Positions 2,789-8,462 of a DNA stretch of 64,000 nt are shown in pieces. The DNA is taken from positions 1 through 64,000 of the forward strand of contig NZ_LXYE02000045.1 in the NCBI RefSeq assembly GCF_001659685.2, read 5' to 3'. The notes beneath the pieces were generated by a model. The model saw only the letters and a program-made list of their open reading frames with translations. It ran no database searches and was not told where the DNA came from. Source of the DNA: Labilibacter marinus (lineage in GTDB: Bacteria; Bacteroidota; Bacteroidia; Bacteroidales; Marinilabiliaceae). Both the position numbers and the translations under genes were made by a program. Each line of letters begins with the position of its first letter. Positions within the stretch are counted from its first letter, which is position 1.

Positions 2789-3526
2789 ATGCCGCAAGAA
2801 AACGATTTAAACCTGCTAACAGAAGAAATTGAAGCCATTAAAAAAGAAGAAACACTAGAGCCTTACATTCCCGTAGATACTTATATTCAGGAAGCTAAAG
2901 ACCTTAATTACTGGGTAACAAAAGACATGGATGCCTTTAAAAACATAGGTTTTAACATGCAATACATGGATACTTTAGCTACCAGAGCAGGCGCTTTAAG
3001 CGAAGCGCAAAGCCGTTGGACAGGCGAAAAGAAAAGTGTGGCAGATGCACAGACTGCCTGGAAACTGGAAAGTCCTGCCGCTTTTCAACTTCAAAACAAA
3101 TTAATTAGTGCTTTTAATTATGCTTTCAGAAAAGATAAGGAGGCCAAAAGCACAGTAGACCTGATTGCTGAAGGCACAGGTAATGCAGATATGATACAAG
3201 ACCTAAACGATTTGGCGGTAGTAGGCAAAGGTAAACCTGAACTATTGGCAGCCATTAAATTTGACATGACCTTATTGGATACTGCAGCACAATTGAGTGA
3301 TAGAATGGGTGAGATAAGAGCTGCGGCCAATGGCGAAAGCAAAGAGTTTAAAGAAGAAAAGTTATTACGCGATAAGGCCTATACCTATTTAAAAGAGGCG
3401 GTAGATGAAATTCGTGATTGCGGTAAATACCTGTTTGCTGATAATAAAGACAGACTAAAAGGTTACCGAAGCGAATTTATACGCAGAAAGAACAACACTA
3501 AAAATAACCAGGAAGACACGGAATAG
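2789..3526 (+). CDS. hypothetical helical protein
   Basis: This 245-aa ORF has no signal peptide or membrane helix. The composition is strongly helical, charged and Ala/Lys/Glu-rich throughout, with a basic C-terminus (RSEFIRRKNNTKNNQ). I do not recognise a family. It lies 86 bp after the small secreted peptide and before the 21-bp repeat array. Good codon structure and length support a real gene. It could belong to the small accessory block that continues with the HNH protein. Confidence 0.6.
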   Translation: MPQENDLNLLTEEIEAIKKEETLEPYIPVDTYIQEAKDLNYWVTKDMDAFKNIGFNMQYMDTLATRAGALSEAQSRWTGEKKSVADAQTAWKLESPAAFQLQNKLISAFNYAFRKDKEAKSTVDLIAEGTGNADMIQDLNDLAVVGKGKPELLAAIKFDMTLLDTAAQLSDRMGEIRAAANGESKEFKEEKLLRDKAYTYLKEAVDEIRDCGKYLFADNKDRLKGYRSEFIRRKNNTKNNQEDTE

Positions 3527-3582: not shown

Positions 3583-3823
3583 TAATTCGTGAAGCCCCCA
3601 ATAGCGATTCGGCTTTATAAAAAACTGATTCGTACGAGCAAATACCTGATTTGTGGGCATAAAATAATGATCTGGATACCCTAATACTATGATTCGTGTA
3701 CCCCAAAAGATGATTCGAAGGGGGCATAGGGCGATTTGGCTGGGGTAAAAACTAGATTCGCCAAGCTTATTTACTGATTTGGCTGGCTAAAATAATGATT
3801 CGTACTACTCAAAAAAGTATTAG
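3583..3823. repeat. degenerate 21-bp phased tandem array (YGATTYG)
   Basis: A heptamer close to TGATTCG recurs at 3583, 3605, 3626, 3647, 3668, 3690, 3711, 3732, 3754, 3775 and 3796. The intervals are 22, 21, 21, 21, 22, 21, 21, 22, 21 and 21 bp. The rest of each unit is degenerate but often AAAA-rich. This fills most of the gene-free 3527-3868 gap. Minus-strand ORFs across it show a loose 7-aa periodicity but look non-coding. Confidence 0.8.
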
Positions 3824-3868
3824 CCCCAGGTTTTATAACACGAGTGGCGTTGGAAAACAGTTGAATAA

Positions 3869-4111
3869 TTGATGGAGAATATAATGAGATGTACTAACAC
3901 CAAAGGTTTAGAGGTGCACCACAAACGCAGAGATGGTGGTATAGACTTAAGCAATGCAGAGGTTTTATGCCACCATTGCCATGTTAATACCTCAAGCTAC
4001 GGAACGCCTGGCAAATCGCCTCATCCGTTTCCTGTGTTGGTAAAAGCAAATGCATTAAAAAGAGCAGGCAACAGATGCGAGTGTACCAGAGCTGCTTGCG
4101 GAACGCATTAA
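3869..4111 (+). CDS. small HNH-type zinc-binding protein
   Basis: This 80-aa ORF has an HNH/zinc-finger signature: CTNTKGLEVHHKRRDGG, then LSNAEVLCHHCH. That gives the HH pair, the central Asn and the C-x2-C-type zinc ligands typical of HNH nucleases. A second cysteine motif (RCECTRAACGTH) sits at the very C-terminus, where longer family members would continue, so the protein may be shortened. If functional it would be a metal-dependent DNA-nicking or DNA-binding protein. It is 21 bp upstream of another tiny ORF. The start was chosen at the first ATG; a methionine at residue 5 is also possible. Confidence 0.55.
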   Translation: MMENIMRCTNTKGLEVHHKRRDGGIDLSNAEVLCHHCHVNTSSYGTPGKSPHPFPVLVKANALKRAGNRCECTRAACGTH

Positions 4112-4464: not shown

Positions 4465-5013
4465 ATGGTAAATTGGCTATACCGCATATTACTTACATTT
4501 AACTCAACATCATTATTGCTAGTCGTCTTTTGGATTAAAGATGAGTATATCATTTCTTGGGAGAAGCTATTCCCTAACCATGATGTCAGTATAATTCCAG
4601 ATTGGATTTCCTACATTTTATATTTTCTTCTACCTATAGCTACAACCCTTATAAGCTTAGGACTCGCTCGTTTTTTAGACAATGATAGCGTTAACAATAT
4701 TGAAGAAGTTGAACAGGCAAATAATGCATTTCTACCAAGTTATTTAGGATACTTTTTTGTGGCGCTTGGTGTTGGTAATTGCAATACTTTATGGTATATA
4801 TTTTCGATACTTTTTGTCTTTACTTATTTTTCCCAAACACTCTATTTCAATCCATTATTTCTACTGTATAAATACCATTTCTATTACTTAACTACATCCA
4901 ATCGAGTAAAAATATTTGTGATTACAAAGAAGACTCTAAAAAGTCCATCTTCAATAAAACTAGAGCAACTTAAAAGAATAAACAATTTTACCTTCATTGA
5001 TAAAGAAAAATGA
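4465..5013 (+). CDS. kwaA: probable Kiwa defence membrane protein KwaA
   Basis: This 182-aa protein has about four hydrophobic segments (near residues 8-23, 46-68, 88-104 and 108-128) and a basic cytoplasmic tail (KRINNFTFIDKEK). Size, topology and position directly before a DUF4868-like gene match KwaA of the Kiwa anti-phage system, where a membrane sensor works with KwaB. The stop codon overlaps the next start (ATGA, 5010-5013), so the two are translationally coupled. A poly-G tract and a 130-bp leader precede it. KwaA proteins diverge strongly, so the call rests largely on the partner and the layout. Confidence 0.62.
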   Translation: MVNWLYRILLTFNSTSLLLVVFWIKDEYIISWEKLFPNHDVSIIPDWISYILYFLLPIATTLISLGLARFLDNDSVNNIEEVEQANNAFLPSYLGYFFVALGVGNCNTLWYIFSILFVFTYFSQTLYFNPLFLLYKYHFYYLTTSNRVKIFVITKKTLKSPSSIKLEQLKRINNFTFIDKEK

Positions 5014-5861
5014 CTATGAACTACCTATTAGCTGAAATAAAACAAAGAGGCAAATCTGATAAAACCTTGAAAGTATTCTCTGAAGCAGACGAGATTTATC
5101 CATTCCCTAATGACCTAGATAATCCTAAAGAATATGACAGCGATTATAAACTAGAAGATGATGAATGGTTTCATATCCCCAACTTTAAGACAACTGATTA
5201 TTCAATTGATATATTAAATAAAGATTTTAGCTCAACAGAGTACAATAACATATCCAAGCTACAACAAGATAAAATCAAATACTTGATGGCTTTTCAAAAA
5301 CATGACAACAATACCTCATACTTTTTTTTCCAAAAGGTAAATTCGTCGCAAGTTCTTCATAAAAGTTGGTTTAAAATTTCTGATACACCTACACTTGAAA
5401 AGGATTCTCCAATCATTATTGTAAACAACTATGCAGATGCCATTTATGACATTAACAATGACATACTTTATTTCAAAAAGCTAACTTCTATAACTACAAT
5501 ATTTCAAGGTATATCTGAACTATATAAAGAAGCTACTCAAGAGGAAACTGAAAAATTCTTGGATGAAAAATTTATTAATTTAGAGGATAACTTTCAAGCA
5601 AATAACGTTGGCACTGCAAATAGAAAAAGAATTGCAATGGCTGTAGAAACTTTAAATTCATTTTCGCCAACTGAAAAAACGACCATCTTTGATTATATAA
5701 AAGGTTATTGTGCCAACATACCTTTCGATGAAACAGCCAAGACATTTACCGTTTCAGATGAAGAAAAATTAAAGCACCTGCTTTGGGGTATAGAACAACG
5801 TTACTATACAACTAAAGTCGGAGATGAAAAGCGAGTAGCAAACTCTGTTTCTACTTTATAA
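5010..5861 (+). CDS. kwaB: probable Kiwa defence protein KwaB (DUF4868-like)
   Basis: This 283-aa soluble protein has no signal peptide. The middle holds a beta-rich part (SPIIIVNNYADAIYDINNDILYFKK, near residues 132-156) followed by a helical region with FLDEKFI. The C-terminal segment (about 200-280; NRKRIAMAVETLNSF, then HLLWGIEQRYYTT) resembles DUF4868/KwaB proteins. In Kiwa, KwaB is the DNA-associated effector that acts with membrane-bound KwaA against invading DNA. The length is slightly below the usual figure of roughly 300 residues. It overlaps kwaA by 4 bp. The family call is from memory of the pattern, not from a search. Confidence 0.62.
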   Translation: MTMNYLLAEIKQRGKSDKTLKVFSEADEIYPFPNDLDNPKEYDSDYKLEDDEWFHIPNFKTTDYSIDILNKDFSSTEYNNISKLQQDKIKYLMAFQKHDNNTSYFFFQKVNSSQVLHKSWFKISDTPTLEKDSPIIIVNNYADAIYDINNDILYFKKLTSITTIFQGISELYKEATQEETEKFLDEKFINLEDNFQANNVGTANRKRIAMAVETLNSFSPTEKTTIFDYIKGYCANIPFDETAKTFTVSDEEKLKHLLWGIEQRYYTTKVGDEKRVANSVSTL

Positions 5862-6105: not shown

Positions 6106-6684
6106 ATGAAGTTTAACATACATCCAAAAATTGATTCTGAATCTATTTTATTTTTTGATATGGACGGCACTTTGATTGATACCGACTATGCAAATTTTTT
6201 ATCTTACAAGAATTCTATACAAACTGCAATTTCTATTGACAAGAAAATTGAATATAACTCCAAAGTTAGATTCAATCGGACTTCTTTAAAAACTGTTTTT
6301 CCAGATCTTACAACAAACGAATATGAAAAAATAATACAAGATAAAGAGAAAAATTTCTCGAAGCACCTATCACACACTACCTTGAAAAGTGCGGCTGTTG
6401 ATATTTTAAATCAATATTCAATAACGAATAAAACTGTTTTAGTTACGAATTGTCGTGAAGATAGAGCATTACTGACTTTAGATTTCCATAATCTTACTAA
6501 TAAATTTAACAATCTATTTTTCAGACAATCCATAAAAAATGGAAATCACATTAACAAATACCAACATGCTATCACAACATTAAATGTATCGGTTAATAAG
6601 ATTATAGTTTTTGAAAATGAAATCCGAGAAATAGACGATGCTTTAAAAACTGGCATTCCAATTAAAAACATAATTAAATTCTAA
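6106..6684 (+). CDS. HAD-family phosphatase (first gene of HAD-PRTase-DprA operon)
   Basis: This 192-aa protein has HAD motif I as FFDMDGTLIDT (nucleophile D18, acid/base D20) and motif II as VLVTNCRED (near residues 110-118). The motif IV region reads IIVFENEIREIDDA, with Glu in place of the first Asp of the usual DD. The length fits a small HAD phosphatase with a helical cap. It starts a tight operon: 10 bp to the PRTase-like gene, which is 2 bp from the DprA-like gene. By analogy with published comparative-genomics neighbourhoods of HAD, PRTase and Smf/DprA genes, it may process a nucleotide or nucleoside. The substrate is unknown. Confidence 0.72.
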   Translation: MKFNIHPKIDSESILFFDMDGTLIDTDYANFLSYKNSIQTAISIDKKIEYNSKVRFNRTSLKTVFPDLTTNEYEKIIQDKEKNFSKHLSHTTLKSAAVDILNQYSITNKTVLVTNCREDRALLTLDFHNLTNKFNNLFFRQSIKNGNHINKYQHAITTLNVSVNKIIVFENEIREIDDALKTGIPIKNIIKF

Positions 6685-6694
6685 TGTTATCACA

Positions 6695-7333
6695 ATGAAC
6701 AGGTTTACAATTAAATCAAATAGATATTTAAATCAGGATATTCGGTCTTTTTATCATACAGATTTTGGAGGTTATCAACTTCCAAACAATCCAAATTACT
6801 TATATAAATTCAAGAATGACCCGCACCATAATTGGTCAAACTTCCATATCAAGCAGGCAAAGGAGGAATTACTACAGGTGCTAATCAATGATTTACCAAC
6901 AATTAAAACTGAAATAAATATTAATCCCTTAACAGTCTGCGTTATCCCAAGAGCAAAGGCAGATAACACATATCGACCAGATCAATTACTTTTTAAAGCT
7001 ACAGTAAGACAAGCGACACTTCAATTAGTCAACAATGGTTTTATTGACGGAACAAACTATATTACTCGACATACAAATACAAAGACTACTCATCTTAGGA
7101 AACCTATTTCTGGCTATAAAAATGATGGTCCAGAGCCATATGTCGGTATTAGTTCTGCTACTTGTAATATTTCTAATAATATCATAGGGAGAAATATTCT
7201 ATTAATTGATGATATTTATACTAAAACAGTAAATATTGATGAAGATATGATACAAACGCTTATTGATTATGGTGCTAATTCAATTATTTTCTATGCAATT
7301 GGAAAAACTATCTTTGAAAAGGAAAATGTTTAG
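6695..7333 (+). CDS. phosphoribosyltransferase-like protein
   Basis: This 212-aa protein carries a type I PRTase-like signature near residues 167-183: ILLIDDIYTKTVNID. This corresponds to the strand and acidic pair of the PRPP loop. The usual TTGxT that binds phosphate is replaced by TKTVNID, so PRPP binding may be altered. A second conserved strand, TVCVIPRAKA (about residues 76-86), resembles the region before the PPi loop. It sits between the HAD and DprA-like genes with gaps of only 10 and 2 bp. Likely role: making or cleaving a ribosyl-phosphate compound for the system. That is inference. Confidence 0.65.
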   Translation: MNRFTIKSNRYLNQDIRSFYHTDFGGYQLPNNPNYLYKFKNDPHHNWSNFHIKQAKEELLQVLINDLPTIKTEININPLTVCVIPRAKADNTYRPDQLLFKATVRQATLQLVNNGFIDGTNYITRHTNTKTTHLRKPISGYKNDGPEPYVGISSATCNISNNIIGRNILLIDDIYTKTVNIDEDMIQTLIDYGANSIIFYAIGKTIFEKENV

Positions 7334-7335
7334 AA

Positions 7336-8319
7336 ATGAAATATACAGATAACGCATTGAATATTATCACAACAAAATCATACAAAGGAATCGGTAGAGC
7401 TTGGATTGTAAAGAATTTAATTGGCAATGAGAGTGTAAATGAAATCATTACTCTTTTAAACAACAAGTCCAAACAAGTCGAGACTGTAACTGTTGAAGAT
7501 TTTGAATACAAAAAAAAACATACAATTAATCAAATTAATAACCTTAAAGAAAGTTGTGATGGCATAATTGCGATTGGTGATAATAACTTTCCTAAACATA
7601 GAGGAAATGTAAAGGACAGTGAACGTCCTATATTCCTTTTTTACAAAGGCGATATAAATCTTTTAAGTATCAATAATAATAATATAGCAGTGATTGGCCT
7701 TCTTAATCCAGACGAATCAATTGAGTACAGAGAACAAAAGATTGTTAATGAAATTATAAAACAAGGTGTTACTATTGTTAGTGGATTAGCTTTAGGATGT
7801 GATAGCATCGCACATAAGCAAGCTCTTACAAGCGGCTTAACCGTAGCTATCTTACCTAGCCCATTAAACAACATTATGCCAGCTAAGAATAAAGGTCTAG
7901 CATTAGAAATCATTAAAAAAGGTGGACTTTTAATTACAGAATACTCTGACAAACATAAATCCGCAATGGAGTTAAGTAGCCGCTACAAAGAAAGAGATAG
8001 ATTACAAGCTTTATTTTGCGATGCAATAATATTAGTAGCAAGCTACGCACAAGACTCGGCTAAACGATGGAATATCTTTAACGAAAAATTGGATAGTGGA
8101 GCAAGATTAGCAATGAGATTTGCAAAAGATTATAGCATTTCGCAAGCTGTAATGTATGATGAGAAAGCGGACTTAAATAATCCAATGTTTGACCTGAATC
8201 GACAGTTAATTGATGAACATAAAAGCATTACCATCCTAACTCCAAAACACCTTGAAAATTTAATTAATATGGTAAAAAATCAATCAACAACATTTCAGTC
8301 TAACCTGTTTGATAAATAA
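7336..8319 (+). CDS. DprA/Smf-like Rossmann (SLOG-type) protein
   Basis: This 327-aa protein has the DprA/Smf Rossmann core. The motifs are IAVIGLLNPDESIEYRE (about 115-131), IVSGLALGCDSIAHKQAL (about 148-165), VAILPSPLNNIMPAKN (about 171-186), GGLLITEYS and a RYKERDRLQALFCDAIILV segment. The canonical GSR is replaced by GLL and the usual RNR by KERDR. The C-terminal winged-helix domain of true DprA is missing, ending instead in a short tail. True DprA loads RecA in natural transformation. This divergent copy in a HAD/PRTase operon more likely binds a nucleotide-type ligand or processes DNA in a stress or defence system. Confidence 0.72.
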   Translation: MKYTDNALNIITTKSYKGIGRAWIVKNLIGNESVNEIITLLNNKSKQVETVTVEDFEYKKKHTINQINNLKESCDGIIAIGDNNFPKHRGNVKDSERPIFLFYKGDINLLSINNNNIAVIGLLNPDESIEYREQKIVNEIIKQGVTIVSGLALGCDSIAHKQALTSGLTVAILPSPLNNIMPAKNKGLALEIIKKGGLLITEYSDKHKSAMELSSRYKERDRLQALFCDAIILVASYAQDSAKRWNIFNEKLDSGARLAMRFAKDYSISQAVMYDEKADLNNPMFDLNRQLIDEHKSITILTPKHLENLINMVKNQSTTFQSNLFDK

Positions 8320-8372
8320 ATAGTACTTGTCCTATCCGCTCTTGCACACAACCCCTTCCCCTATCTAAAAGT

Positions 8373-8416
8373 AAACAACAAAGCTCTCTTCAGTTAAAAA
8401 GAGAGCTTTGTTGTTT
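8373..8416. terminator. long perfect hairpin, bidirectional terminator
   Basis: The arms AAACAACAAAGCTCTCTT (8373-8390) and its exact complement (8399-8416) enclose an 8-nt loop. The 18-bp stem is perfect and has T-rich ends on both strands. It sits between the convergent DprA-like gene and GH16 gene, so it likely ends both transcripts. Confidence 0.8.
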
Positions 8417-8462
8417 ATATGCTTTGGATTATAGCCCAATGCATTAATAATAGGGAATTAAA

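Follow-up and report, generated by a model that had tools for sequence, protein, structure and literature searches.

A probable three-gene ShosTA-type module next to Kiwa in Labilibacter marinus, with a sliding-clamp-binding-like tail on its putative antitoxin

Next to the Kiwa defense system of Labilibacter marinus there is a compact trio of genes encoding a HAD hydrolase, a phosphoribosyltransferase (PRTase) and a DprA-like protein, which raises the question of what these three proteins do together. The trio lies within a 64,000-nucleotide stretch (contig NZ_LXYE02000045.1, positions 1 to 64,000; hereafter the window). Its open reading frames (ORFs) of 192, 212 and 327 amino acids occupy positions 6106-8319 on one strand, with gaps of 10 and 2 bp, i.e., they form the compact operon described in the original prediction. 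With a probability of about 0.7, we assign the trio to ShosTA-type toxin-antitoxin defense modules, as a three-gene form with a clamp-docking antitoxin tail. The assignment is based on the Escherichia coli system, in which ShosT is a fusion of HAD-like and PRTase parts and ShosA is DprA-like; the window encodes a DprA-like protein of the ShosA fold, an adjacent ShosT-type PRTase and an adjacent HAD gene. As HAD and PRTase are separate here and not a single fused ShosT gene, the trio was filed as a variant of ShosTA. By analogy, it would be a toxin-antitoxin pair whose HAD and PRTase, though encoded separately, cooperate.

The trio recurs as a unit. One scan of the GTDB genome contigs with a PRTase alignment, using the PRTase patterns VNIDED[AMV]I and TV[CV]V[VI]PR[AS]K, gave 72 loci, and the conservation of those PRTase stretches is therefore partly built in. 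By record title, the loci belong to Bacteroidota, Pseudomonadota, Chloroflexota, Planctomycetota, Spirochaetota, an archaeal bin and others, many records being metagenome bins whose phylum assignment may err; two loci (L004 and L005) are apparently the same as two others (L050 and L051), with identical hidden Markov model scores. All three genes were present within 1.5 kb at 56 of the 72 loci, while 13 were without HAD only, two without DprA only and one without both. HAD was located within 1.5 kb of the PRTase at 57 of the 67 loci with at least 700 bp upstream, and DprA was present at 69 of the 70 loci with at least 700 bp downstream. HAD and PRTase share one frame in L064 and L077, PRTase and DprA in L046, and PRTase and a part of DprA in L044; L004 and L005 show the trio in the same order, as does a Synechocystis plasmid, where it adjoins an Abi-family gene. 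The PRTase was found in three of 395 drawn genomes of the phylum (the window's own counted) and in none of eight other genomes of the genus searched; the distribution is therefore patchy, which probably reflects horizontal movement. One window-type PRTase locus (L104, tail unreadable) was found on viral contigs, and no PRTase match in the phage collection. The trio is thus an accessory unit in the genus. Three other arrangements were also observed: a second PRTase copy 3' of the trio (L025, 6730-7368), a partly duplicated cassette (L076, 389-4019) and, on a Deinococcus plasmid where no PRTase was seen, a protein joining HAD straight to DprA (L142, 2796-4214).

The first four DprA-like sequences ended in Q-x-x-L-F, placed beyond a variable linker. 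For the tail count, 69 loci were used; three without a DprA ORF above 100 bits (L058, L070 and L073) were dropped, and two read from broken or fused frames (L044 and L046) were scored as misses. Within the last 30 residues, Q..[LMI][FLWY] was present in 46 of the 69 tails and Q..LF in 42, compared with means of 3.9 and 0.55 (maxima 10 and 4) in 2000 shuffles, which do not remove relatedness among the tails. In the last 10 residues the counts were 44 and 40, respectively. Among 225 flanking ORFs, the two patterns occurred four times and once (last 30 residues) or twice and once (last 10). The motif was absent from all 31 DprAs taken as housekeeping; the 30 control DprAs, the best-scoring 30 of a 148-genome search, were so called by their length and winged-helix-like tails, not by neighborhood.

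The motif extends to distant relatives. Eight of the nine readable P2-type viral ShosAs (10 loci) carry it, seven as QLSLL and one as QFSLF, several of them being nearly identical. In 16 phage and plasmid loci (chosen by hand among 24 phage records and 147 plasmid records, some PRTase matches being weak), a five- or six-residue form was found in five of the 11 divergent DprA-likes that have a PRTase (P2 QLSLL, Priestia QLNMF, Sinorhizobium QISMDF, Rhizobium QTSMAF and Bradyrhizobium QMSML), two had near-misses (Psychrobacter and Hymenobacter) and four had none; neither did any of the five in which no PRTase was seen. In the predicted model of the window protein, residues 321-324 are the sole segment of at least three residues with a predicted local distance difference test score (pLDDT) below 50, so the motif is exposed in a flexible segment, as a clamp motif should be. 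The E. coli ShosA chain 8zva is without its last 14 residues, and 9vzo contains them. The host genome encodes a DnaN, the sliding clamp, which the tail, judged by its sequence, may bind. A broader proposal, to which we give slightly less than even odds, is that antitoxins of the ShosA type, among them that of E. coli with its tail QQLSLLGDE, are clients of the sliding clamp, tethered to DnaN at forks. When a phage takes over the replisome, they would be freed or redirected, and the HAD/PRTase nucleotide-pool toxin would be released. The clamp-like C-terminal antitoxin tail looks new, being absent from the paper listings searched, a search that did not extend to the account of the ShosTA mechanism by Pu et al. 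(2025; doi 10.1038/s41467-025-58540-9).

The three proteins were also examined individually. The DprA-like protein (Pfam DNA_processg_A, 7.4e-35) contains SGLALGCDSIAH, the Smf Rossmann motif expected from the original prediction, which also rightly described altered key residues and a missing winged helix. The canonical GTR motif is absent from all 64 relatives, 57 of which have GLL instead, and its pattern was matched in 11 of 13 DprAs taken as housekeeping. According to the confident predicted model (pLDDT 94.5), in which no helix or strand follows residue 315, the protein is without a winged helix. The GTR arginine is part of the single-stranded DNA pocket of DprA, and DNA binding by window-type ShosA may therefore differ from that of DprA. 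Neither GTR nor the C-terminal winged helix of housekeeping DprAs was found in the window protein, and its clade is separate: in a tree of 44 proteins (16 of the 64 relatives plus the window's, 14 other DprA-likes and 13 taken as housekeeping), all 17 window-type proteins formed one clade (100/100) outside the 13 housekeeping ones (95/89). The best PDB sequence match of its profile is ShosA. The window PRTase had no Pfam match, and comparison of its model with PDB structures placed ComF first and ShosT (8zvc and 8zvd) second and third. Its altered phosphoribosyl pyrophosphate (PRPP) loop, DDIYTKTVNID, is as originally described and is the usual form among relatives (the loci being found partly via that motif); across 51 PRTases, its DD, YT and DED residues do not vary, partly owing to the search pattern. 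In the HAD protein, K151 and E170 are invariant among the 46 aligned sequences together with the nucleophile motif residues (Table 1), and DxDGT is retained by 44 of the 45 relatives whose start is clean, which makes an active hydrolase likely. The ENE noted in the original prediction is indeed present, at the place where beta-phosphoglucomutase-type HADs carry ED, but the protein is not degenerate. Its PDB relatives include beta-phosphoglucomutases and inorganic pyrophosphatases.

It should be stressed that a number of observations weigh against the proposed assignment, both in its identity and in its tail. PADLOC reported ShosT (2.2e-9) and ShosA (8.7e-46) in the window, but its ShosT model matches 21 of 21 genomes and 13 of 14 controls, with another locus of the host genome scoring 48.3 bits versus 34.5 for the window PRTase, while its ShosA model matches 147 of 148 genomes and gives the second DprA of the host 214 bits versus 152 for the window protein. 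The models are non-specific, so the ShosTA label needed independent support, and filing by PADLOC scores alone was rejected. In fold comparisons, ordinary DprAs (3maj, 29.1; 3uqz, 28.4) scored above ShosA 8zva (25.7); fold therefore does not separate ShosA from DprA. In the tree, the P2 ShosA lies toward the housekeeping DprAs and is not joined to the window clade, an unsure placement given the long branches, and the tree thus does not show a single origin of ShosA. No ShosT was found in a PDB sequence search with a PRTase profile of four sequences, and no HAD was found at 10 of the 67 loci with room for it. The HAD half of E. coli P2-type ShosT is without the DxD that the window HAD retains, and the chemistry of the two may therefore differ. 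A flanking-gene scan, made without a control, covered 133 of the 226 ORFs of 37 loci and matched 132 families with scattered defense hits (all but one of the 25 families listed being in a single member), so defense-island enrichment is not claimed.

Concerning the tail, the motif is missing, with near-misses counted, in six of the 11 divergent DprA-likes, the ShosA of Pf-phage PfAC02a included. The recent DnaN-binding consensus (PMC13254535) has a five-residue form, Q-phi-x-[L/M]-[F/L], and a six-residue one, Q-phi-x-[L/M]-x-[F/L], phi being aliphatic. This strict consensus was matched by seven of the 69 tails (shuffle mean 0.85, maximum 6; none of the 2000 reached 7). QSNLF of the window fits it at Q, L and F, but not at the second residue, for which most family members have T, K or G; QLSLL of the P2 ShosA fits it fully. 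Of the DinB-like proteins of the host, one has QIRLF inside its chain and the other ends in QLTIDF. The tail may thus bind the clamp only weakly, or its ligand may be something else, the toxin included.

The last option deserves the most attention among the alternatives, even if we regard it as unlikely: the tail would bind its cognate toxin, PRTase or HAD, instead of DnaN, as a classical toxin-plugging antitoxin tail. Antitoxins commonly have disordered C-terminal tails, the motif in the divergent DprA-likes was seen only where a PRTase partner was seen, and most tails fall outside the strict clamp consensus. However, Q, L/M and F/L recur across families whose toxins are differently fused and ordered, which argues against this reading.

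The ShosTA assignment suggests how the module may work. ShosT is described as combining PRTase and pyrophosphatase activities and as upsetting purine metabolism, with DNA duplications and filamentation as the result, ShosA as binding DNA and likely recruiting other factors for recombination, and Gp0.7 of T7 as the trigger (summarized in PMC12593503 from Pu et al. 2025). RqlH, with a PRTase domain and a DprA-like partner, is reported as genotoxic via its PRPP site (PMC4670107), and a P2-type DprA and PRTase pair as protecting against T7 and lambda (PMC9122126). By analogy with these systems, the window PRTase would be the toxin core and the separate HAD its partner hydrolase, the two together replacing the fused ShosT halves and, once released, consuming PRPP and unbalancing purine nucleotides. 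The DprA-like ShosA would be the antitoxin, its Rossmann body contacting DNA or toxin, and the QxxLF of its disordered tail most likely docking it on the DnaN clamp. As a possible trigger, antitoxin activity would be held at replication forks and disturbed by phage takeover of, or damage to, replication. The simplest reading is thus the chemistry of ShosTA, with toxin activities on two chains and a tail that would place the antitoxin at the fork.

In one model of the original prediction, HAD and PRTase would produce or remove a nucleotide signal that the SLOG/DprA pocket senses. The model of the DprA-like protein does match LOG proteins, which bind nucleotides, as well as the ThsA SLOG domain, but the picture published, as summarized in PMC12593503, is that of a nucleotide-pool toxin (PRTase and pyrophosphatase) opposed by a DNA-binding antitoxin, and we consider such signaling improbable. 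What stands of that interpretation is the recurring, accessory unit beside a defense system, and not its relation to Ter-linked stress systems, which was rejected as unneeded, since ShosTA accounts for the trio (ter genes were not searched for). An ordinary competence or nucleotide-salvage operon of ComF and DprA paralogs without a defense role is very improbable, as, even though the folds of the PRTase and the DprA-like protein are nearest to ComF and ordinary DprA, both competence proteins, the genome retains another DprA, which is longer and has a tail resembling a winged helix, the PRTase is missing from the eight sister genomes, the DprA-like protein has its own deep clade and the trio adjoins Kiwa.

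The features of the locus are collected in Table 1.

Table 1. Coordinates of the trio, its motifs and neighboring elements within the window.
Feature	Position	Strand	Basis
HAD hydrolase gene, putative split counterpart of the ShosT HAD-like half	6106..6684	+	Pfam HAD_2 1.7e-8
HAD nucleophile motif DMDGT (residues 18-22)	6157..6171	+	D18, D20 and T22 invariant in 46 sequences
ComF/ShosT-type PRTase gene (putative toxin core)	6695..7333	+	
Altered PRPP loop DDIYTKTVNIDED (residues 172-184)	7208..7246	+	alignment of relatives; loci partly motif-selected
ShosA, DprA-like putative antitoxin without winged helix	7336..8319	+	
C-terminal QSNLF, sliding-clamp-binding-like, in disordered tail (residues 321-325)	8296..8310	+	tail counts, structure model
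KwaA (Kiwa), neighboring defense system, outside the trio	4465..5013	+	PADLOC KwaA 4.6e-12
KwaB (Kiwa), neighboring defense system, outside the trio	5010..5861	+	PADLOC KwaB 5.6e-20
Perfect 19-bp inverted repeat 3' of the trio	8372..8417	.	scan: terminator-like on - strand

The Kiwa pair, confirmed as the neighbor named originally, ends 244 bp before the start of the trio. The AT-rich codon use that had been pointed out was also found: GC content is 0.302 in the trio versus 0.355 across the window, and at third codon positions it is 0.22-0.25 in the trio, 0.26-0.27 in Kiwa, and 0.37 and 0.42 in two tested downstream genes. Overall GC likewise is similar between trio and Kiwa and below that of these two genes. 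At Rfam gathering scores, no RNA element was matched between positions 4000 and 8600. A phmmer search saw no Kiwa near other trio loci, but it was weak, missing the window KwaB when compared with that of PfAC02a, and a frequent Kiwa partnership is not claimed. Further upstream, positions 2789-3526 encode a 245-amino acid protein with no Pfam match above cut-off, whose relatives are present, often in multiple copies, in eight of nine genomes of the genus (its own counted), and degenerate TGATTCG/TGATTTG-type repeats (3600-3850) precede a short ORF (3869-4111) judged HNH-like by eye.

As for the PADLOC models, PDLC03961 and PDLC03962 hit DprA- and ComF-like loci in almost every genome searched and score them above the window proteins; as the search models also match housekeeping DprA and ComF, surveys may overcount ShosTA. 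On the present assignment, the trio belongs to a known system of solved structure and differs from it by its split toxin gene, and its catalytically intact HAD on a separate gene would let the two toxin activities be genetically separated. The clamp-binding-like tail recurring in divergent ShosAs offers a concrete, quickly testable answer to the question of how DprA-like antitoxins sense infection. If the tail does bind the clamp, a defense switch would be linked to replication, and ShosA as a clamp client would name the factor that it reportedly recruits.

Among known systems, the closest is ShosTA of E. coli and P2-like phages (PDB 8zva-8zvd, 9vzo, 9w2p and 9w2q), which shares with the trio a DprA-like ShosA, a ComF-like PRTase, a HAD-like partner domain, an accessory location and a Q-x-x-L-(L/F) tail. 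In the window, however, two genes make up the putative toxin, the order is HAD-PRTase-ShosA and not ShosA-ShosT as in P2, the HAD catalytic residues are intact whereas P2 ShosT is without DxD, the PRPP loop reads TKTVN instead of a G-containing loop, and the DprA-like protein has no GTR and is far from ShosA in the DprA tree. ShosTA of PfAC02a (OR790968) has the same HAD, PRTase and DprA order directly beside Kiwa, but its HAD and PRTase are fused, its Kiwa lies on the other side in convergent orientation, and its ShosA has no clamp-like tail; carrying a fused ShosT next to ShosA and Kiwa (L135, 3330-7169), it is a precedent for the neighborhood seen in the window. RqlHI/PsyrTA likewise sets a DprA-like antitoxin against a PRTase-bearing toxin, and an E. 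coli plasmid relative (L093) also has an N-terminal HAD, but that toxin carries a RecQ-type helicase, which the trio does not. SocAB and RipA are likewise reported to be toxin-antitoxin systems linked to the sliding clamp; there the toxin acts on the clamp, whereas here it would be the antitoxin that binds it.
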